64,000 nucleotides of DNA, taken from the NCBI GenBank assembly GCA_030148775.1, contig JASBST010000011.1, forward strand, positions 1 to 64,000, given 5' to 3'. The first letter of the stretch is position 1, and each line of letters starts with the position of its first letter. The notes beneath the pieces were generated by a model. That model was not told where the DNA came from, did no database searches, and saw only the letters and a program-made list of their open reading frames with translations. Positions 40,134 through 50,105 of the stretch are shown one piece after another. The position numbers and the translations under genes were made by a program. This stretch comes from Thiogranum sp. Its GTDB lineage: Bacteria > Pseudomonadota > Gammaproteobacteria > DSM-19610.

Positions 40134-43100
40134 ATGAATATCAACAAGGATCCCCTGCGGATCCGGCGCGAATACAATCAGTGGGTGGCGAACGAGACGC
40201 TGGAGGATTATGCCCTGCGTTATACCGCCAAGCGCGCGCGACGTTGGTCGACCGGCTGGGTCGCCAATACGGCGCTCGGCATTGTTTCATTTCTGGCGCT
40301 GGAGGCCATCGGCGGGACTATTACGCTCAACTATGGATTCGACAATGCCATGTGGGCGATTCTGGCGGTCGGCGCCATCATTTTTCTGTCGGGTCTGCCG
40401 TTGGCCTATTACGCCGCGCGCTATGGGGTCGACATCGACCTGCTGACCCGCGGCGCTGGTTTCGGTTATATTGGCTCGACGATTTCGTCGTTGGTCTACG
40501 CCTCGTTCACCTTTATTTTCTTTGCCCTGGAGGCGGCCATCATGTCGATGGCCATCCACATGGTGGCGAATATCCCGTTGTCGGTAGCGTACGTCATCAG
40601 TACCTTGGTGGTGATTCCCTTGACGACGCACGGTATCAGCCGTATCTCCCGGTTTCAGGCCTGGACGCAGCCGCTGTGGCTGGTGTTGCAGCTCATTCCA
40701 TTAGGGTATATCGCATTACACGAATCGGATGCATTTCAGCAATGGGTTGAGTTCGGCGGTACCTCGGGACAGGGTGGTCAGGGATTCGAACTGGCGCTGT
40801 TCGGCGCCGCGGCCGCTGTGATCTTTCCGCTTATCGCGCAAAACGGCGAGCAGGCCGACATTCTGCGATTTCTGCCGGAAATAAACCGGCAGAATAAACT
40901 CTACTGGTGGCTGGCGATGGCTGGCGCCGGGCCCGGCTGGGTAATATTCGGTATGCTTAAATTGTTTTTTGGCTCGTTTCTGGCGGTGCTGGCCCTTCAT
41001 CACGGGTTGTCGCCGGCGCTGGCGGACGACCCTGCGCATATGTACGCCGTAGCGTTTGGTTATATTACCGCCAACCCGCATATGGCGCTGTGGCTGGCGG
41101 GCGTTTTTGTCGTGATTTCGCAATTAAAGATTAATGTCACCAATGCTTACGCCGGTTCGATCGCCTGGGGAAACTTCTTTTCGCGGCTGACCCACAGCCA
41201 CCCGGGCCGGGTGGTCTGGCTGGTGTTCAACGTCACCATCGCCTTGATGCTGATGGAGCTCGGACTCTATCAGGCGTTTGAGTCGATTCTGATCATCTAT
41301 GCCAGCCTGGTGGTGGCCTGGGTCGGCAGTGTCGTGGCGGATCTGGTCATCAACAAGCCGCTTGGTTTGAGCCCGCGGCATATCGAGTTCAGACGAAGCC
41401 ATTTATATGACATCAATCCGGTCGGTGTCGTTTCCATGTTCGTCGCATCCAGTGCCGGTATTGCGGCGAATCTGGGCGTTTTTGGTGTCCAAGCGGAGGC
41501 GTTGGCGGCTTTCATCTCGCTGTCTATCCCCTTTATCACTGTACCGCTAATTGCCTGGCTGACCGGTGGCCGCTTCTATCTTTGCCGCGAAGAAGATCAG
41601 GGCATGGGCGAGGTAGAACAACAGCAATGTGTCATCTGTGAAAATCATTTCGACGGCGAGGATATGAGCCAGTGCCCCACCTACGAGGGCGCGATTTGTT
41701 CGCTGTGCTGTGCGCTGGATTCCCGCTGCGGCGACCGCTGCAGGCCGGATGCCCATATCGGCGCACAGGCCTCTGTACTGTTTGGTCGGATACTGCCTCC
41801 GTCTATCAATAGGCGGTTGCATTCCGTTACCGGTCATTACCTGGTCGTTTTCATGGCGACCACCGGAATTATCGCCGGCCTGCTGGCGCTCGTGTTTTAT
41901 GCCCAGCAGAGCAGGCACGTGGCGAACATCGGCATCATCGGCGACGTACTCTGGCAGGTGTTTTTTCTCCTGATGCTGGTCACCGGCGTGTTAATCTGGC
42001 TCTATGTGCTGGCGCAGAAAAGTGCCCGGTTTGCGTTGAGTGAAGCCCGGCTACAGGCTGAACTGATGCAACGCGAAGTGATGGCGCATGAGTTGACGGC
42101 AGTGGAGCTTGCGAAGTCCCGAGATACGGCCAATGCCGCCAACAAGGCCAAGTCGCGCTATCTGTCCGGCGTAAGTCACGAACTCCGAACACCGCTTAAT
42201 ACGATTTTCGGCTATGCCAGACTGATGGAAATGGATGAGTGCGCGGACGAAAAGGTCCGCAGGATCTCCACGGTGATCAGGCACAGCAGCGAACACCTTT
42301 CGGACGTTATCGAGGGTCTGCTGGAGATCTCCAAGATCGAGGCGCGCAAATTGGATTTACAGCGCCATACCGTGGACCTGCGCTCTCTGATCCAGCAGCT
42401 CGACGACATGTTCCGGCCGCTGGCCGCTGACAAGGGGCTCGAGCTGCGCGTCAAGTGTCAGCGGGAGCTGGCGCGATTTGTTTCGGCGGACGAAAAACGG
42501 CTTCGTCAGGTTCTGCTGAATCTGTTATCCAACGCGATCAAATTCACCCAGGCAGGAGCCGTCGAGCTGCGTATTACCTACCGCAACCAGGTGGCGCGCT
42601 TCATCGTGCGGGATACAGGTATCGGTGTTGCCGAGAACGACCAGGCCAGGATATTCGAACCTTTCGAGCGGGTGCGTAGCGATCAGACAAAACTGATTAC
42701 CGGTACCGGCCTTGGCCTGTCCATCAGCCGTATTCTGGTCGAGATGATGGGCGGCAACCTCGCGCTGCAAAGCCAACCAGGTGAGGGAACCGAGTTTTGT
42801 CTGAGCTTGTTTCTTCCCGTTGTGGCTGGCGGCATGGTGACAGCTGGCCAGCACGCCAGAATCCGCGGCTACGAAGGGCGTACGCGCCATATTCTGGTAG
42901 TGGACGATGAGGACAGTCACCGCGACCTGATCCACGACTTTCTCTCCCCCCTGGGTTTCATGGTACATCGCGCTGCTTCGGCCGAGCAGGCGCTGAATAT
43001 GTTGAATGCTCGCGCGATGGATCTGATGTTGCTCGACATCAATATGCCGGAGAAGAATGGCTGGGAATTGCTGGCCGAGCTTCGCCAGCGCGGGTTTGAC

Positions 43101-43508
43101 CAACCTGTGGTTATTCTGTCCGCGGACCCGTACGAAAATGTTTCGCCGTACCAGGAGGGCCGCGACTTCGAGGCGTATATCGACAAGCCGGTACGAATCG
43201 AGAAGTTACTGGAACAACTACAGCGTTGTCTTGCTTTGCGCTGGTACGACATCGCGAAGCCGGAGAACCGGCCCGAGCAGGCCGCAGGCCTCGAAACAGA
43301 GCCCATATTCGAGCCCGACGCGGATGTCCTGAACGAGCTGGAGCGTTCAGCCCGAATCGGTTACCTGACGGGCGTGATCGAATGTACCGAGCAGTTTGAG
43401 TCAGAAGCACCTGCCTCGCCGCGGGTAAAAAAACTCAGGGTATTGACACAGCGTTGCGACCTGGAAGGTATTGTCCAATGGGTTGATAAAACAAAAGGTG
43501 GCCTCTGA
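40134..43508 (+). CDS. Transporter-like (NCS1) hybrid sensor histidine kinase
   Basis: Exceptionally large 1124-aa membrane sensor. Residues about 1-480 look like an NCS1-family (purine/cytosine/allantoin) permease with about 12 helices (GFDNAMWAILAVGAIIFLSG, FPLIAQNGEQADILRFLPE). Residues about 483-536 form a cysteine cluster (CVICENHFDGEDMSQC, then CSLCCALDSRCGDRC), probably metal-binding. Two more helices and a coiled coil lead to HisKA (SHELRTPLNTIFGY, His at about 682) and HATPase_c (N-box NLLSNAIKF, DTGIGV, GTGLGLSISR). A receiver domain follows (ILVVDDED; phospho-Asp in LLLDINMP, about 968), then a short tail. It is divergent from the urea operon and 3 bp from its response regulator. 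Sensing urea or a related nitrogen compound is inference. Confidence 0.85.
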   Translation: MNINKDPLRIRREYNQWVANETLEDYALRYTAKRARRWSTGWVANTALGIVSFLALEAIGGTITLNYGFDNAMWAILAVGAIIFLSGLPLAYYAARYGVDIDLLTRGAGFGYIGSTISSLVYASFTFIFFALEAAIMSMAIHMVANIPLSVAYVISTLVVIPLTTHGISRISRFQAWTQPLWLVLQLIPLGYIALHESDAFQQWVEFGGTSGQGGQGFELALFGAAAAVIFPLIAQNGEQADILRFLPEINRQNKLYWWLAMAGAGPGWVIFGMLKLFFGSFLAVLALHHGLSPALADDPAHMYAVAFGYITANPHMALWLAGVFVVISQLKINVTNAYAGSIAWGNFFSRLTHSHPGRVVWLVFNVTIALMLMELGLYQAFESILIIYASLVVAWVGSVVADLVINKPLGLSPRHIEFRRSHLYDINPVGVVSMFVASSAGIAANLGVFGVQAEALAAFISLSIPFITVPLIAWLTGGRFYLCREEDQGMGEVEQQQCVICENHFDGEDMSQCPTYEGAICSLCCALDSRCGDRCRPDAHIGAQASVLFGRILPPSINRRLHSVTGHYLVVFMATTGIIAGLLALVFYAQQSRHVANIGIIGDVLWQVFFLLMLVTGVLIWLYVLAQKSARFALSEARLQAELMQREVMAHELTAVELAKSRDTANAANKAKSRYLSGVSHELRTPLNTIFGYARLMEMDECADEKVRRISTVIRHSSEHLSDVIEGLLEISKIEARKLDLQRHTVDLRSLIQQLDDMFRPLAADKGLELRVKCQRELARFVSADEKRLRQVLLNLLSNAIKFTQAGAVELRITYRNQVARFIVRDTGIGVAENDQARIFEPFERVRSDQTKLITGTGLGLSISRILVEMMGGNLALQSQPGEGTEFCLSLFLPVVAGGMVTAGQHARIRGYEGRTRHILVVDDEDSHRDLIHDFLSPLGFMVHRAASAEQALNMLNARAMDLMLLDINMPEKNGWELLAELRQRGFDQPVVILSADPYENVSPYQEGRDFEAYIDKPVRIEKLLEQLQRCLALRWYDIAKPENRPEQAAGLETEPIFEPDADVLNELERSARIGYLTGVIECTEQFESEAPASPRVKKLRVLTQRCDLEGIVQWVDKTKGGL

Positions 43509-43511
43509 GTC

Positions 43512-44432
43512 ATGCACAAATTCAAGGGCAAGACGACGGTATTGGTTGTTGACGATTCCCCTGATTCACTGGGGATGATCAACATGGCGCTGGATGACGC
43601 CGGTATCGCGGTACTGATAGCGTTGAATGGTCAGCAGGCCATGAATGTACTTGAACAGATTGTGCCCGACGTAATTCTGATGGATGCTGTGATGCCGATA
43701 ATGGACGGTTTCGAGTGTGCCCGCAAGGTGCGCAAGAAACTGCCGTTGGTACCGATTATTTTCATGACCGGGCTGAGCGAGGTGGAGCATATCGTCAAGG
43801 CGTTCAATGCGGGAGGCAACGATTACATCGTCAAACCCATGCATCCCGACGAGTTGCTGGTACGTATCCACCAGCATACCCACAGTGCCCGGATGTTGAT
43901 GGAGGCGCAGAAGGTGCTGGACGCCATGCGTCAGTATGTGTTTTGTATCGACGGCAGTGGTGCGGTGTTGTGGGCCACCCCCGAGGCGCAGGGGCTGCTG
44001 GATCAGTACCAGAAGAATATGGGGGCGGACAGTGGTGAACTTGCCAGCAGGTTCAGTCGCTGGCTGTCCACCGGTCGGCAGGGGCATAACCTGTGCTTGC
44101 CTATGAGTGATGGCTCCACGGGTCTGATTGTGTGCTACTTCAAGCAGTCCGAAGAAGATGTCTATCTTCTGAAGATCCAGTCCGACAATGTTGAGATCGA
44201 GCCTGCGATCCTGGAAGACAGCCTGTCTATAACCCGTCGTGAAGCCGAAGTTCTCCTGTGGCTCGCGCACGGCAAGACCAATCGCGAAATTGCCGAAATC
44301 CTTGATATGAGCCCGAGAACAGTCAACAAGCATCTAGAGCAGATGTACCCCAAGATCGGCGCCAGCAACCGTACGGCGGCCGCTTCGGTGGCGATACAGC
44401 GAATTCTGGGGGGGCGCATCGGTCAGCCATAA
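43512..44432 (+). CDS. LuxR-family two-component response regulator
   Basis: 306-aa regulator. The N-terminal receiver (TTVLVVDDSPDSLGMINMAL) has its phospho-Asp in VILMDAVMP and the conserved Lys in DYIVKPMHPDEL. Residues about 140-230 may be a degenerate PAS-like or linker domain (YVFCIDGSGAVLWATPEAQG). The C-terminal helix-turn-helix is LuxR/GerE type (TRREAEVLLWLAHGKTNREI, SPRTVNKHLEQMY). Starting 3 bp after the hybrid kinase, it is its likely phosphotransfer partner and the probable regulator of the urea operon. Confidence 0.9.
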   Translation: MHKFKGKTTVLVVDDSPDSLGMINMALDDAGIAVLIALNGQQAMNVLEQIVPDVILMDAVMPIMDGFECARKVRKKLPLVPIIFMTGLSEVEHIVKAFNAGGNDYIVKPMHPDELLVRIHQHTHSARMLMEAQKVLDAMRQYVFCIDGSGAVLWATPEAQGLLDQYQKNMGADSGELASRFSRWLSTGRQGHNLCLPMSDGSTGLIVCYFKQSEEDVYLLKIQSDNVEIEPAILEDSLSITRREAEVLLWLAHGKTNREIAEILDMSPRTVNKHLEQMYPKIGASNRTAAASVAIQRILGGRIGQP

Positions 44433-44532: not shown

Positions 44533-46605
44533 CTATTGCACCCACTGCGACCAGTCCGCGCGGTTTTCCGCGACATGGAACAGCGCGGCCACCACCTGTC
44601 GGTCGTATTTGGCGGGGCTTTCGCGCAACAGCTGTTCCAGCGCTTCGTGCAGGCCGACGGGGCCGCGGTAGGCGCGCGGACTGAGCAGCGCGACAAAGGC
44701 GTTGCTGACCGCGAGGATTCGGGCGGTCAGCAGAATGTCGCCCTCGCGCAGGCCGTCGGGATAACCGCTGCCGTCCGGGTGTTCGTGCTTCTGGGCGATG
44801 GTATCCACCACCGGTCCCTCGAATTCGAGGTCGGCCAACAACTCGGTGCCGAACAGGACATGGCGCTGCACCAGCGCCTGTTCGGCTTCGGTCAACGGTT
44901 CGGTCTTGGTCAGCACTTCGCGCGGCACGAAGATCTTGCCCAGGTTGGCCAGACTGGCCGCCAGATCGAGGGTGCGTCGATCGGCGGCACTGAGGCGCAG
45001 CTCGCGCCCGATGGCGTTGGCCACTTCGGCCACACGGGCGGAATGATGGGCGGAGTTGGGGTCGTGCAGATCGACCACATGCATCAGCGTGTCGACCAGT
45101 TTGCGCATCAGCGCCGCGTGTTTACGCTGCGCCTGTTCCAGCTCGGTGGTATCGTGCAGCACCAGGAGAATGGCGTGGTAGCGCTCGCCAATACGGTCGA
45201 CCGGCACCAGGGAGCATTGCAGACTGCGTGTTTGTGTTCCCAGCGCCATGGTCACGCTACAGCGCCTGATCGCGGGGGCCGCTTCCACGCCGGCCAGCGC
45301 TTCGGTCAGCGGTTCGACGTTGGCGGGGCCGAGTACGCCCGCCAGTGAGTTGCCGACCAGCTCCTGCGCGCCGGCGCCCAGTTTGTCCGCCAGCGGGGCG
45401 TTGGCGAACAGCACGCGCTGTTGCGCGTCCAGCAGCAAGACATAAGCGTCGGCATTGTCGGTCACCGCGTGCAGCAGTTCCGTCTGTTTTTCCAGTTCCA
45501 GGGTCTTTTGTCGCAAACTGTCGGCGTCGTGGCGGGCGCGCACGCTGCTGCCATGGCGCCAGGCGGCAACCAGTATCGCGACGAAGAAGAACAACAGCAG
45601 CGAAAAGGTCGTGATGAGAAACTGCCGGTGTCGGTCGGATTCCGATAACGCCCGTCCGGCTTCCACCTCCTGCAATACCAGCCAGGGCGTGCTGCGCAGT
45701 TTACGGCTGGTGGCGAGCACTTCGTGTCCCTGGTAGTTGAGGTACTCGCCGAAAGCGCCGGGTCGGCGCAAAGCCGCGGCGGCGGCCAATCGGTCGCGGT
45801 CCATCGGCAGCGTCTTGCGGGTGGGTACGCCGCCATCGACGGTCGGCGATAGATAGACGACCTGTTGGCCGGATTGCGAGATCAGCAGCGAGACTTCGCT
45901 GGTCATCGTCGGCACTCCGGCCTGCAACAGTGGGTACAGGGAGCGTTCGGCGTTAACCACGGCGAGTACCACGCCGCTGTAGGCGTCGGCCGCCTGTGAG
46001 CCGATGACCCGGGGTACCGGCACCGCGATGCCCAGCAGCACCCGTTCGTGCGCGTCGGTCACCAGCGTGCTGAAGGCCGCCTGGCCGGTTTTGAGCGCTT
46101 TTTTTATCGCCGCCTGAAACGCCGCTCCGATCTCCGGCATGCCCTTGGTCGAAACCACATGGCGTCCCCTGGCGTCCAGCAGTGCGAGTCCGGCGTCGTA
46201 GCGTTGCGGCAGATTGGCGGGGATCTGCGGCTGCTGCGCCTCCGGCAGGAAGCCGTTGCGACTGGCGCTGGCCAGTACCAGATTGCGCAGATAGCTGAGC
46301 TGGGCGGGCTCGACGCTGTGATCCTGCTCGTCGCGACCCGCCAGTTGCCACAAATAGAGCTGCAACGAGGCGTTATTGGCCAGTTCGTTCAGGGCCGATA
46401 CGCGCCCGTCGAGCCAATGTTCGATAGCGTTGACGCGTGTTTCCGCCACCAGTCCCAGACGAATCGCCCAGTTGTCGAGATCGCGTTGACGCTCGTTGTC
46501 GACATACACGGAAATCAAATAGGCGCCGCCCAGGACCAGCGCCAGCAGCACGGCCAGTCCGGCGATGACCGGTTTACGAGTGGTGGTGGTAGCGGGCGTG
46601 GGCAT
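44533..46605 (-). CDS. Membrane HD-GYP protein with degenerate active site
   Basis: About 690-aa sensor: membrane helix at about 14-34 (VIAGLAVLLALVLGGAYLIS), a large Cache-like periplasmic domain, a second helix (TTFSLLLFFFVAILVAAW), a PAS domain (AVTDNADAYVLLLDAQQRVL) and a C-terminal HD-GYP domain. In the latter the HD dyad is replaced (LANLGKIFVP, about 548-553, where LHDIGK is expected). The first His of HHE is Lys (KHEHPDGSGYP), and the VaDvfDAL segment reads VSNAFVAL. Most metal ligands of c-di-GMP phosphodiesterases are thus gone, while GYP remains. GTG at 46629 is an alternative start. The end of the LapG-like gene touches or overlaps this start. Confidence 0.88.
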   Translation of the reverse strand: MPTPATTTTRKPVIAGLAVLLALVLGGAYLISVYVDNERQRDLDNWAIRLGLVAETRVNAIEHWLDGRVSALNELANNASLQLYLWQLAGRDEQDHSVEPAQLSYLRNLVLASASRNGFLPEAQQPQIPANLPQRYDAGLALLDARGRHVVSTKGMPEIGAAFQAAIKKALKTGQAAFSTLVTDAHERVLLGIAVPVPRVIGSQAADAYSGVVLAVVNAERSLYPLLQAGVPTMTSEVSLLISQSGQQVVYLSPTVDGGVPTRKTLPMDRDRLAAAAALRRPGAFGEYLNYQGHEVLATSRKLRSTPWLVLQEVEAGRALSESDRHRQFLITTFSLLLFFFVAILVAAWRHGSSVRARHDADSLRQKTLELEKQTELLHAVTDNADAYVLLLDAQQRVLFANAPLADKLGAGAQELVGNSLAGVLGPANVEPLTEALAGVEAAPAIRRCSVTMALGTQTRSLQCSLVPVDRIGERYHAILLVLHDTTELEQAQRKHAALMRKLVDTLMHVVDLHDPNSAHHSARVAEVANAIGRELRLSAADRRTLDLAASLANLGKIFVPREVLTKTEPLTEAEQALVQRHVLFGTELLADLEFEGPVVDTIAQKHEHPDGSGYPDGLREGDILLTARILAVSNAFVALLSPRAYRGPVGLHEALEQLLRESPAKYDRQVVAALFHVAENRADWSQWVQ

Positions 46606-46607
46606 GA

Positions 46608-47261
46608 TCAATCGGGCAGATAGAGCCACCAGTGCAGCTCATTAATGGCGTAGACGGGGGCATAATGCACGATATTACGCTGCGAGACGACTTCCTGTAT
46701 CTGATTATCGAGGATTTTCACGTCGTCGTCCGTCGCCACCGCCAGTACCGCGTGGGGGACGCGCAGGTTGGTGTCCTGCAGAACCACGATGCGCAGATCC
46801 GCCATCGGCACGCCCAGCCAGCGCAGCGAAAAGAACTTGGTGATCGCGTAGTCTTCGCAGTCGCCGTTGTTGTAGAGAAACTCGCGCGGCACCGCCCAAT
46901 AGTCCTCGACACCGTAATTCTCGATATCCAGGACATAGGGTTTGCGGTTGGCGTAGCGATTGACCGCCTCCAGCTGCTCGGCCAGCGGGCGCCCGCGCAA
47001 GGTGTCCAGGAAGGCCAGCCAGGCGCGCAAATGGCACTGATTGAGCATTTTCTCCTGACAGTACCCCTCTGGCACGTCGAGTCGAACGTGGCGCTCAAGT
47101 ACTTGAATCCACTGGCCGAAAGTCTGGGTATCCGGCTGCTCGATGGCGTTGTAGCCGAACAGCCGTGGGGGGAATACCAGTGCATGCGCACTCGTCGTGA
47201 ACAACAAGCCCAGGCTGCCGATAAGGGCCCACAGTGGGGCGAATATAGGGAATTTAGCCAA
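46608..47261 (-). CDS. LapG-like periplasmic cysteine protease (BTLCP family)
   Basis: 217-aa bacterial transglutaminase-like cysteine proteinase. A signal peptide (LIGSLGLLFTTSAHA) precedes the catalytic domain: Cys in NNGDCEDYAITK, His in RVPHAVLAV and Asp in KILDNQ. This matches LapG, which clips large adhesins from the cell surface under control of the c-di-GMP receptor LapD. No LapD (GGDEF-EAL) gene lies nearby; instead the next gene in the operon is the degenerate HD-GYP membrane protein. No adhesin target is in the window. Confidence 0.88.
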   Translation of the reverse strand: MAKFPIFAPLWALIGSLGLLFTTSAHALVFPPRLFGYNAIEQPDTQTFGQWIQVLERHVRLDVPEGYCQEKMLNQCHLRAWLAFLDTLRGRPLAEQLEAVNRYANRKPYVLDIENYGVEDYWAVPREFLYNNGDCEDYAITKFFSLRWLGVPMADLRIVVLQDTNLRVPHAVLAVATDDDVKILDNQIQEVVSQRNIVHYAPVYAINELHWWLYLPD

Positions 47262-47361: not shown

Positions 47362-48657
47362 ATGGATCAAGTACTAAGAAATCGCAGCCTGTGGATGGGG
47401 TTACTCCTGTGCGCGGCGGCCGGTTTCGCGCGGCCCGTGTTCGCGGCGGCCGGCGAGAATCCGGATCTCGAGGCGCAGTTTGAGCAGGGCATGGAAGCAT
47501 TGGAACAGGAGCACTATAAAAGCGCCATCGAAACGTTCCGCAGCATCCTCACGCGTGACACCAGTCTGGACCGGGCGCGGCTGGAACTGGCGCTGTCCTA
47601 CTATCGAACCCTGCGCTACCAGGAGGCGGAGCGTCTGGCGCAGGAGGTGCTCGACAATCCGCAGACACCGCCCGAAGTCCGGGTGACAGTGCTTGCGTTT
47701 TTGGCGCAGGTGAAACGGGACTCCGAGCGTTACGGCCAGAAACATGAAGTGACACCGCATCTGTCGATCGGCGTCATGCACGATTCCAACGTCAACATCG
47801 GTCCGACGGATGCGCTGATCCGCTTCGATCTCAACCCGCTGCCGGCATCGGCGCTGAAGCGTTCCGGCAACGCGGCGGTAGGCACGGTCGGTGTGGATCA
47901 TCTGTACCAGTCCGGCCGTCGTGTCGAGCTTGGGCAACGCACCGGCATGCTGGTATGGCAAAGCGGGGCCAACCTCTACTGGCGTCGCTATCACGATTTC
48001 AATGATTACGATCTGCTGGTGGCCAGCGTCAACACCGGTCCGGCGGTGTTGTTGCTGCGTCATTGGCGCGCCTCGCTGCAATTGCGCTCGGAGTTCCTCG
48101 ACCTGGGCGCCCGCGCGCTCGGCTGGTTTCACTCGGTCAATCCCTCGATCACCTGGCAGTTCAAAAATGGCGAGTTGAACTGGGATACGCTGTATACGCG
48201 TCGCTCCTATTACCGTGACAGCGATTCCGGGCGCGAAGGGGATTATGTGGCCACGGGTCTGAATCTGGGGCATTACTTCAACAACCGGCGGGGTACCGCC
48301 ACGGTGGGTGTGCGCGGGATCCGCTTTTTCGCCGACGCCGACCAGTTTGCTTACAGCGCCGCTCAGGTCAGCGCGGGCTTGAGCACCCGTACCTACAAAA
48401 ACGGCTCCGCCTATGTGCGCGGCCGCTTCACCTATTATGACTACGACGGCGACGACCCGATCTTCCTCAAGCCGCGCCGCGAGAAGGAGTACGTGGGCAC
48501 GGTGGGTCTGACCCACGAGTTCAAACAACCGGACGATCTGCTCAAGGGTTGGGTGGCCAACCTGTTCTGGGAAGGCACGCACAACGATTCCAATATTGGC
48601 CAGCTGTTCAGTTACGGTCGCAATCAGACCATGTTGATGCTGTCGCGGGACTTTTGA
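47362..48657 (+). CDS. TPR plus outer-membrane beta-barrel protein (DUF560/Slam-like)
   Basis: 431-aa exported protein. A signal peptide (GLLLCAAAGFARPVFAA) is followed by TPR repeats over residues about 30-125 (FEQGMEALEQEHYKSAIETF, ARLELALSYYRTLRYQEAER). A C-terminal barrel of about 14 strands ends with Phe (MLMLSRDF). HLSIGVMHDSNVNIGPTD starts the barrel in the manner of surface lipoprotein assembly modifiers (Slam). Function as an exporter of a surface protein is inference. The start ATG at 47362 gives the signal peptide; it is divergent from the lapG-like gene. Confidence 0.8.
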   Translation: MDQVLRNRSLWMGLLLCAAAGFARPVFAAAGENPDLEAQFEQGMEALEQEHYKSAIETFRSILTRDTSLDRARLELALSYYRTLRYQEAERLAQEVLDNPQTPPEVRVTVLAFLAQVKRDSERYGQKHEVTPHLSIGVMHDSNVNIGPTDALIRFDLNPLPASALKRSGNAAVGTVGVDHLYQSGRRVELGQRTGMLVWQSGANLYWRRYHDFNDYDLLVASVNTGPAVLLLRHWRASLQLRSEFLDLGARALGWFHSVNPSITWQFKNGELNWDTLYTRRSYYRDSDSGREGDYVATGLNLGHYFNNRRGTATVGVRGIRFFADADQFAYSAAQVSAGLSTRTYKNGSAYVRGRFTYYDYDGDDPIFLKPRREKEYVGTVGLTHEFKQPDDLLKGWVANLFWEGTHNDSNIGQLFSYGRNQTMLMLSRDF

Positions 48658-48688
48658 GCGGGTACGCGACAGTTGAGTAGGTTTGAAA

Positions 48689-48713
48689 CGGGCCTCGATG
48701 GCCCGTTTTTTTT
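48689..48713 (+). terminator. Intrinsic terminator after the Slam-like gene
   Basis: CGGGCC at 48689-48694 pairs with GGCCCG at 48700-48705 around TCGAT, followed by eight T residues. It lies 32 bp after the stop codon. Confidence 0.9.
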
Positions 48714-48957: not shown

Positions 48958-48973
48958 AGGCACGGTCGTTGCT
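48958..48973 (+). promoter_or_regulatory. Sigma-54 promoter of the PEP-CTERM operon
   Basis: AGGCACGGTCGTTGCT matches the sigma-54 consensus TGGCAC-N5-TTGCw at all but the first base. The invariant GG is at 48959-48960 and GC at 48971-48972, with the required 10 bp between. Transcription would start near 48984, about 53 nt before the ATG at 49037. PEP-CTERM genes in Zoogloea are known to be driven by RpoN with PrsK/PrsR. Confidence 0.78.
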
Positions 48974-49036: not shown

Positions 49037-49372
49037 ATGAATCAGGCAATGATAAGGACAGCACTGTTGCTCGCGGGCGTTGGACTCACCTTGGGCCAGG
49101 GCGTGCAGGCGGCCCAGCCGAAAGAAGGCGATTCAGTTTACCGTTGGGGTCGTTGGGCGGTGCTCAGTCCGGCCGCCGGCGGTAACGAGCCTTTTGTTGC
49201 GGCGAATATGCCGGCCACACAGTATAATCCTCTGCCCTGTGATGCCGGCTTCTGTCCCGAGGTCACGCTGCAGCCCGAAACGCCACCGCCAACGGACGAC
49301 CCCCGGGACCGGTTGCCACCGCCGCCACAAGTCGTGACGGACGATCCGCGGGATCGGCTGCCGCCGCGATAA
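49037..49372 (+). CDS. Small secreted protein with DDPRDRLPP repeats
   Basis: 111-aa protein of no family I recognise. It has a signal peptide (ALLLAGVGLTLGQGVQAA), a short central part with two cysteines (CDAGFC), and a Pro/Asp-rich C-terminus in which TDDPRDRLPP occurs twice. It is the first gene after the sigma-54 promoter and lies 58 bp before the PEP-CTERM gene, so the two are likely co-expressed. It has no PEP-CTERM signal of its own. Its role is unknown. Confidence 0.7.
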   Translation: MNQAMIRTALLLAGVGLTLGQGVQAAQPKEGDSVYRWGRWAVLSPAAGGNEPFVAANMPATQYNPLPCDAGFCPEVTLQPETPPPTDDPRDRLPPPPQVVTDDPRDRLPPR

Positions 49373-49430: not shown

Positions 49431-50105
49431 ATGAAAAAATCAGCTACGGTTTTCCTGGCCCTCGGCCTTTTTTCCCTGCAGGGGGTCGCCGCGCCGGTGA
49501 CCGAATCGGTGACCGGTGAGACCTTCGCCGGTTATGCCAACAGCGTGCTGGGAAAAAACGGCACCTTCCTGACCGATCTGGGCAATTCCAGTTCCGGCAC
49601 CAATTGGTCGTCCAACAGTTCGGACATCGATGCCCGCATCACCGATACCAGCGCCGGCAGTAATATTGTGGGTACCAGTGACGGCGCCTGGATCGACCTG
49701 GGCTTCGACATGCCGGTCGTCGACGGGGTCGGTAACGATCTGAAACTGTTTTTCGTCGGCAACAACGGGCACAAGGTGGACGTCACCATTGGTGGTGCGA
49801 CCCAGTCGTACACCCTGGCGCCGGGTGCCAACGCCACCGGTTTCTTCGATCCGGCCTATCCCACCGACCCGATTATCGCCCTGAACGTCGATCTGGCCAC
49901 CTTCAGCGGGCTCAGCGGCAGTGCTTTCAACAGCATGCGGCTCATGATCGGCAACGGTTATTGCGACGACAGCGCCGGTCCCTGCAGTGCCGTGCCGTCC
50001 TTCGTCGGTACTTACAATACCGCCGTCGTCCCGGTGCCCGCCGCGCTCTGGTTGTTCGGCTCCGGCCTGGTCGGCCTGGTGGGTTTCATGCGCAAGCGTA
50101 GCTGA
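49431..50105 (+). CDS. PEP-CTERM sorting domain protein
   Basis: 224-aa exported protein. A signal peptide (VFLALGLFSLQGVAA) is followed by a low-complexity, Ser/Asn/Gly-rich body. The C-terminus has the tripartite PEP-CTERM signal: VPVPAALWLFGSGLVGLVGF, then MRKRS. Such proteins are processed by an exosortase and released or anchored as part of extracellular matrix or floc. The exosortase gene is not in this window. The ATG at 49431 follows GGAGAGAGAT. Confidence 0.88.
   Translation: MKKSATVFLALGLFSLQGVAAPVTESVTGETFAGYANSVLGKNGTFLTDLGNSSSGTNWSSNSSDIDARITDTSAGSNIVGTSDGAWIDLGFDMPVVDGVGNDLKLFFVGNNGHKVDVTIGGATQSYTLAPGANATGFFDPAYPTDPIIALNVDLATFSGLSGSAFNSMRLMIGNGYCDDSAGPCSAVPSFVGTYNTAVVPVPAALWLFGSGLVGLVGFMRKRS

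Follow-up and report, generated by a model that had tools for sequence, protein, structure and literature searches.

A catalytically dead HD-GYP receptor and a LapG-like protease linked to a Slam-like barrel and a PAAG-bearing exported protein in Thiogranum: a candidate c-di-GMP release switch

What does a membrane receptor with a degenerate HD-GYP domain control when its gene directly follows that of a LapG-like protease? Lap-type control acts on giant adhesins exported by type I secretion systems (T1SS) or type Vb systems. The question is raised by a gene pair in a 64,000-nucleotide stretch of DNA from Thiogranum sp. (NCBI GenBank assembly GCA_030148775.1, contig JASBST010000011.1, positions 1 to 64,000 of the forward strand; hereafter the window). 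We found that this pair is linked, in the window and in its relatives, to an outer-membrane protein (OMP) resembling the surface lipoprotein assembly modifier (Slam) and to an exported protein, its candidate cargo, with a conserved PAAG motif. With moderate confidence in the chain as a whole, we propose that a Dvh-type switch responding to cyclic di-GMP (c-di-GMP) has been rewired to a type XI-like (Slam-like) route, where it would control proteolytic release of the cargo.

The protease gene (46608..47261, minus strand) starts with TTG and encodes a LapG/DvhG-like periplasmic cysteine protease (BTLCP, Peptidase_C93) with a clean signal peptide, a catalytic C-H-D set and a DCED calcium motif. 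It matched Pfam Peptidase_C93 (E 1.9e-19), the LapG structure 4fgo (E 9.6e-19) and, at 86 bits, well short of the 320 that the equivalog cut-off demands, NCBIfam CystProtLapG (E 1.5e-24); the D-C-E-D, H and D residues, catalytic and calcium-binding, are invariant across 22 homologues. The receptor gene (44533..46605, minus strand) opens with an ATG at 46605, two bases past the protease stop, and ends with a stop codon at 44533-44535; an alternative listed start, GTG at 46629, would overlap the protease gene. Its product runs from a transmembrane helix through a periplasmic dCache domain and the second of its two membrane helices to a PAS and an HD-GYP domain, with matches to dCache_1 (E 1.4e-5, below the curated cut-off), PAS_4 (1.3e-11) and HD_5 (2.1e-38). 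Within the HD-GYP domain the HD dyad reads AN, HHE reads KHE, V-A-D reads VSN and the following D is V, while GYP is intact. The initial annotation, made from the sequence alone, had described two abutting or overlapping minus-strand genes, one for a LapG-type protease with a Cys/His active site and the other for a two-helix membrane protein with a large periplasmic domain, a PAS domain and an HD-GYP domain carrying just these substitutions, and all of this held. The degeneracy is not a matter of chance, because it recurs in all 39 homologues compared, where N always replaces the D of HD, and either K or S the first H of HHE; with the HD and HH metal ligands lost throughout, the domain is, on sequence grounds, catalytically dead.

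The closest characterised counterpart of this pair is DvhD/DvhG of Desulfovibrio vulgaris Hildenborough (DVU1020/DVU1019), whose receptor gene likewise neighbours that of a LapG-like protease; DvhD comprises dCache (periplasmic), PAS and HD-GYP domains, the last with HD = SQ and HH = MN, binds c-di-GMP without hydrolysing it, and is represented by crystal structures (Nat Commun 2026, PMC13090378). It is also reported to control DvhG when reconstituted in P. fluorescens (PNAS 2024, doi 10.1073/pnas.2320410121, as cited in PMC13090378). The best Protein Data Bank (PDB) matches of the window receptor were both DvhD, namely 9rc0 (PAS/HD-GYP; 1.9e-43, 152 bits) and 9rbz (HD-GYP; 2.6e-39, 138 bits), followed by the next HD-GYP match at 86 bits (E 1e-23). 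The residues of the canonical c-di-GMP site are mostly kept among the 39 homologues: L577, R650, Y/W652 and M/L646 in 39/39 and Y621 in 37/39. Thus, canonical ligand residues persist in a domain that has lost its metal ligands, and c-di-GMP binding by the receptor is therefore likely. The shared dCache-TM-PAS-dead HD-GYP architecture (TM, transmembrane helix), with SQ/MN in DvhD and AN/KH here, makes it very probable that the pair is a c-di-GMP receptor and protease of the Dvh type; taken by itself, the pair adds another member to the DvhD/DvhG kind. There are differences: the window protease has a signal peptide instead of the membrane anchor and long linker of DvhG, some residues of a second, bridging c-di-GMP site are changed, and the DvhA operon pairs a T1SS with a giant adhesin, whereas the genes found here encode a Slam-like barrel and a small protein with PAAG. 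The initial annotation knew of no described system of this kind, a view that DvhD/DvhG overturns (PMC13090378); its picture of an inactive HD-GYP receptor in a conserved pair with a LapG-like protease, with no LapD, survives. What is new is the linked barrel and the exported protein with PAAG, both of which it overlooked. The class-level distribution figure of PMC13090378 may already list gammaproteobacterial pairs.

LapD/LapG/LapA of Pseudomonas fluorescens offers a second comparison, sharing a LapG-type protease, a membrane receptor with a degenerate c-di-GMP domain and a [T/A/P]AAG substrate site. LapD, however, is built from LapD_MoxY, GGDEF and EAL domains. A LapD_MoxY search found no match in 20 genomes of the genus and family, one of them 100% complete; the same search found matches in 5 of 19 other genomes of the class, and therefore works. 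The genome of the window holds a single BTLCP copy, and neither a canonical LapD nor a second LapG, whose pairing would have spoken against the initial annotation, was found in it. The large adhesin which that annotation had led us to expect did not turn up either, with nothing above the Retention_LapA cut-off in 17 genomes of the genus, and the candidate substrate described below is not a giant T1SS adhesin like LapA. Matches to Retention_LapA below threshold were considered as adhesins and set aside; we read them as FecR-type proteins, one of which lies beside a different Slam-like OMP.

What accompanies the pair was asked of two sets of loci. A protease sequence search of public genomes retrieved 22 relatives, from Thiogranum, Thiohalobacter (including the cultured T. 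thiocyanaticus Hrh1, locus L021) and other gammaproteobacteria as well as a deltaproteobacterial metagenome-assembled genome (MAG), Desulfocapsa and an Amphritea MAG; the closest relatives of the locus are Thiogranum MAGs (in L002 the protease is 88% and LeuA 96.5% identical). An HD-GYP gene adjoins the protease in 21/22 of these loci. Where the flank was long enough, the OMP gene adjoins the pair in 18/18, usually divergent from the protease, and the cargo gene is linked to it in 17/17, in L022 at a distance of some 5 kb. The second set was an even draw of 369 genomes of the class, searched with the protease profile alone, in which one clade scored above 290 bits and all other matches below 206 bits. 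Where the contig reached, the nine new loci of this clade had the HD-GYP gene in 9/9, the OMP in 7/8 and the cargo in 7/7 (that of L112 identified by eye), so that the conserved adjacency of BTLCP and dead HD-GYP genes, which the initial annotation had proposed as a check, was recovered in both sets. In contrast, the LapG-LapD control loci of the even draw had LapD in 15/15 and the HD-GYP gene, OMP and cargo in 0/15; six further LapG-LapD loci from a Desulfobacterota draw followed the same pattern, for a total of 21/21 with neither OMP nor cargo. OMP and cargo were also absent from all nine loci with T1SS- or Desulfovibrio-type HD-GYP receptors (L115-L117, L203-L208), and in two of these, L115 and L203, TolC/HlyD or HlyD/ABC genes stand beside the Dvh-type pair. 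From these counts we distinguish three sets of companions for LapG-type proteases: LapD, a Dvh-type receptor, sometimes beside T1SS genes, or the present gene set. Thirteen genomes of the genus have the cargo gene, always as a single copy and never without the protease, and close OMP homologues are likewise confined to genomes with the protease.

Two further observations concern the receptors and proteases themselves. L115 and L116 are gammaproteobacterial Dvh-type pairs beside TolC and HlyD-type genes, with S for the first His of HHE, and represent a T1SS-linked Dvh-type version outside Desulfobacterota. In a Candidatus Odyssella MAG (L023, 3419-5678) two tandem BTLCP-type matches lack an HD-GYP gene beside them. 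In a receptor tree that has long branches and a single active outgroup, the receptors form two sister groups; those linked to Slam-like genes fall mostly into one of them, but L111 lies among the long-branched T1SS-linked receptors.

The OMP gene (47363..48657, plus strand, divergent from the protease) encodes a signal peptide, tetratricopeptide repeats (TPR) and a 14-strand beta-barrel; in an AlphaFold2 (AF2) model, N-terminal TPR helices precede 14 strands at a mean confidence (pLDDT) of 87.7. At E <= 0.01, 16/18 homologues matched TPR_Slam and 10/18 SlipAM. The window protein itself falls below the Pfam cut-off (PF04575/PF24575), and its homologue in L022 lies clearly above that of SlipAM. 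Compared as a profile with annotated Slam proteins encoded beside TbpB-like cargo, the family gave a match of 99.7% (E 1e-26) over nearly the full length, and its nearest plasmid-borne relatives with an informative annotation are called 'surface lipoprotein assembly modifier' and directly follow a 'transferrin-binding protein-like' gene. A PDB fold search returned general porins and TPR-barrel exporters, with no specific Slam structure among the top matches. The likeness to Slam/type XI secretion (T11SS; DUF560, PF04575) thus lies in a TPR plus 14-strand barrel OMP with an exported protein nearby, and we regard the TPR-barrel protein as the probable exporter and anchor of the cargo. Other Slam-like genes have other neighbours: in L162 (4285-7387) and L161 (4682-7368) a different TPR-barrel gene adjoins that of a FecR-domain exported protein, which in L162 also has a barrel-like C-terminus, with no protease nearby; these may constitute a separate T11SS-like pair.

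The candidate cargo (49037..49372, plus strand) is a protein of 111 amino acids with a type I signal peptide, the conserved segment DSVYRWGRWAVLSPAAGG and a Pro-rich tail, which ends in DDPRDRLPP repeats (49290-49372). Its homologues vary greatly in length and C-terminus and share a single conserved segment, DSVxxWGxWxxLx[P/T]AAG, which directly follows the type I signal peptide in most of them and in L009-L011, L015 and L020 comes after an additional domain of some 95 residues at the N-terminus. In the window this segment includes LSPAAGG (49160..49183, plus strand). LapG cleaves at the consensus [T/A/P]AAG, between the alanines (PMC13090378), and the variable first residue of the cargo motif, P or T, fits this consensus, with PAAG or TAAG in 28 of the 32 distinct cargo sequences. 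In about half of the homologues, 15 from other genomes, the C-terminus is a long domain similar to the barrel of Slam cargo; at best, such domains matched Slam-dependent lipoproteins (slam_lipo 5e-8, TbpB_B_D 1.3e-4, HpuA structure E 0.009). Unlike Slam/TbpB-like cargo, the proteins have a type I signal peptide, no lipobox and an N-terminal PAAG motif. Several close relatives of the window cargo share its Pro-rich tail. A PHROGs search gave no match. In Amphritea (L022, 640-2977) two cargo genes stand in tandem, both with TAAG, and roughly 5 kb separates them from those of the OMP and the protease.

Taken by analogy with DvhD/DvhG and LapD/LapG, the dead HD-GYP domain would bind c-di-GMP in the cytoplasm, and a signal would run through the PAS domain and membrane helices to the dCache domain, which would restrain the periplasmic LapG-like protease at high c-di-GMP; the direction of control is borrowed from the same two systems. 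Judging only from sequence and linkage, the protease would cut the cargo at PAAG, the TPR-barrel protein would export and anchor the cargo, its N-terminal segment would retain it, and cleavage would release it. Several observations weigh against such a switch. In the receptor, the bridging c-di-GMP site has K520 changed to H and R569 to E in nearly all of the 39 homologues, and in the window also has N at Y523 and Q at K582; with K520 and R569 replaced, the cooperativity of binding may therefore differ from that of DvhD. In the cargo, four of the 32 sequences deviate at the motif (PAAA in L015 and L020, PAAM in L200, PLAG in L112), the site lacks the 'DP' of the LapA consensus, and the segment ahead of PAAG is in most cases only about 20 residues long, with no folded retention domain. 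The window cargo is moreover a short form, with a Pro-rich tail and no barrel of the kind that Slam exporters recognise, and long and short forms coexist within the genus. Even the long forms matched slam_lipo in only 4/14 cases, far below cut-off (best 5e-8), the cargo profile matched that of annotated TbpB-like cargo weakly (2.9%), and an AF2 model of a long cargo had low confidence (pLDDT 31). Finally, L106 has no OMP nearby, L201 has neither OMP nor cargo, and the window's genome is 86.7% complete.

These difficulties invite other explanations. An ordinary Dvh-type pair might control a giant T1SS adhesin encoded elsewhere, leaving the barrel and the PAAG protein as neighbours with another job. 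Both DvhD/DvhG and LapD/LapG do act on large T1SS adhesins, possibly unlinked (PMC13090378), and such pairs neighbour T1SS genes in L115 and L116 (gammaproteobacteria) and in L203 (Desulfobacterota); yet in none of the 17 genomes of the genus did a LapA-type retention module rise above cut-off, the OMP and cargo are confined to genomes that carry the protease and are missing where the pair is T1SS-linked or the locus is of the LapD type, and the protease consensus sits in the one conserved stretch of the cargo, all of which makes this reading unlikely in our view. We give equally little credence to a constitutive maturation of the cargo, in which the protease would remove a propeptide and the receptor would mainly sense a periplasmic ligand through its dCache domain, with no gating by c-di-GMP. 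Such a role would suit the position of the candidate site, which in most cargos comes soon after the signal peptide, the usual ligand binding of dCache domains and the unconserved bridging site. It fits poorly with canonical c-di-GMP residues kept in a domain that has lost catalysis, with the closest characterised receptor, DvhD, being a c-di-GMP switch, and with the N-terminal domain of about 95 residues in L009-L011, L015 and L020, which looks more like a retention module than a propeptide.

The likeness to a LapG site could also be coincidental, if WGxW...PAAG instead serves the barrel exporter, or some other partner, as a signal for recognition or docking. In favour of this, W-G-x-W is conserved as strongly as AAG, and four cargos deviate at PAAG, but no genome without this protease clade was found to have the motif, whose first residue varies inside the LapG consensus; we consider this explanation quite improbable. 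The reading we prefer remains that of a c-di-GMP switch acting on the PAAG cargo.

The sequences around the cargo gene bear on its expression. A terminator-like hairpin (48685..48709, plus strand) lies 3' of the OMP gene and is followed by a sigma-54 (-24/-12) promoter-like site, AGGCACGGTCGTTGCT (48958..48973, plus strand), which agrees with 11 of 12 consensus positions and ends 63 bases 5' of the cargo start. None of 500 random stretches reached a score of 11 or more; a score of at least 10 of 12 was reached upstream of 15/31 distinct cargos, 0/34 OMP genes and 13/500 random stretches, an enrichment whose Fisher value is overstated because the cargo sequences are related. Just after the cargo, and probably in its transcript, comes a gene for a PEP-CTERM/VPLPA-CTERM surface protein (49431..50105, plus strand), and 18 of the 32 listed cargo genes have a PEP-CTERM gene no more than 2.5 kb away, compared with 0/22 control LapG loci. 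PEP-CTERM genes are RpoN-dependent, with PrsK/PrsR (PMC9850573). PrsR was found above cut-off in 13 genomes of the genus and was not found above it in the window's own, incomplete genome. With a sigma-54-like promoter 5' of the cargo and a PEP-CTERM gene directly 3' of it, the arrangement here resembles the RpoN-dependent PEP-CTERM (floc) genes (PMC9850573), and differs in its proposed Lap-type protease control, which the literature we read does not link to that regulon; we regard sigma-54 control of the cargo as a lead. On the other side of the pair, the window encodes a hybrid histidine kinase of 1124 amino acids and then a LuxR-type response regulator (40134-44432, plus strand). The N-terminal half of the kinase, which has no Pfam match, resembles a multi-spanning nucleobase-permease-type transporter, and a urea/amide-type ABC (ATP-binding cassette) binding protein (Peripla_BP_5) is encoded upstream on the other strand.

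In the literature searched, we found no paper that contains both LapG and 'surface lipoprotein assembly modifier', and two T11SS surveys have neither LapG, HD-GYP nor c-di-GMP in their main text. As far as these searches reach, a Slam-like exporter and PAAG cargo in place of a T1SS adhesin are undescribed, and the known Slam systems differ from this one, in which a protease and receptor are linked, the window OMP falls below the Pfam cut-off and short cargos lack a barrel. More broadly, there is an even chance, in our judgement, that these loci form a third Lap-type module, present in gammaproteobacteria and some deltaproteobacteria/Desulfobacterota, in which c-di-GMP, acting through a dead HD-GYP domain, would gate LapG-like release, from the cell surface, of a non-lipidated T11SS (Slam) cargo whose expression sigma-54 would couple to that of PEP-CTERM matrix proteins.

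DvhD-like receptors also occur outside the Desulfovibrionales. If the proposed chain is true, it would be, to our knowledge, the first link of c-di-GMP-controlled proteolysis with type XI secretion, and its short, defined substrate would offer an easy test of how HD-GYP receptors control LapG-type proteases. The cargo would have gained a release mechanism in place of a lipid anchor, and, should the protease switch act on Slam-type cargo, c-di-GMP control of surface display would reach a further secretion route.

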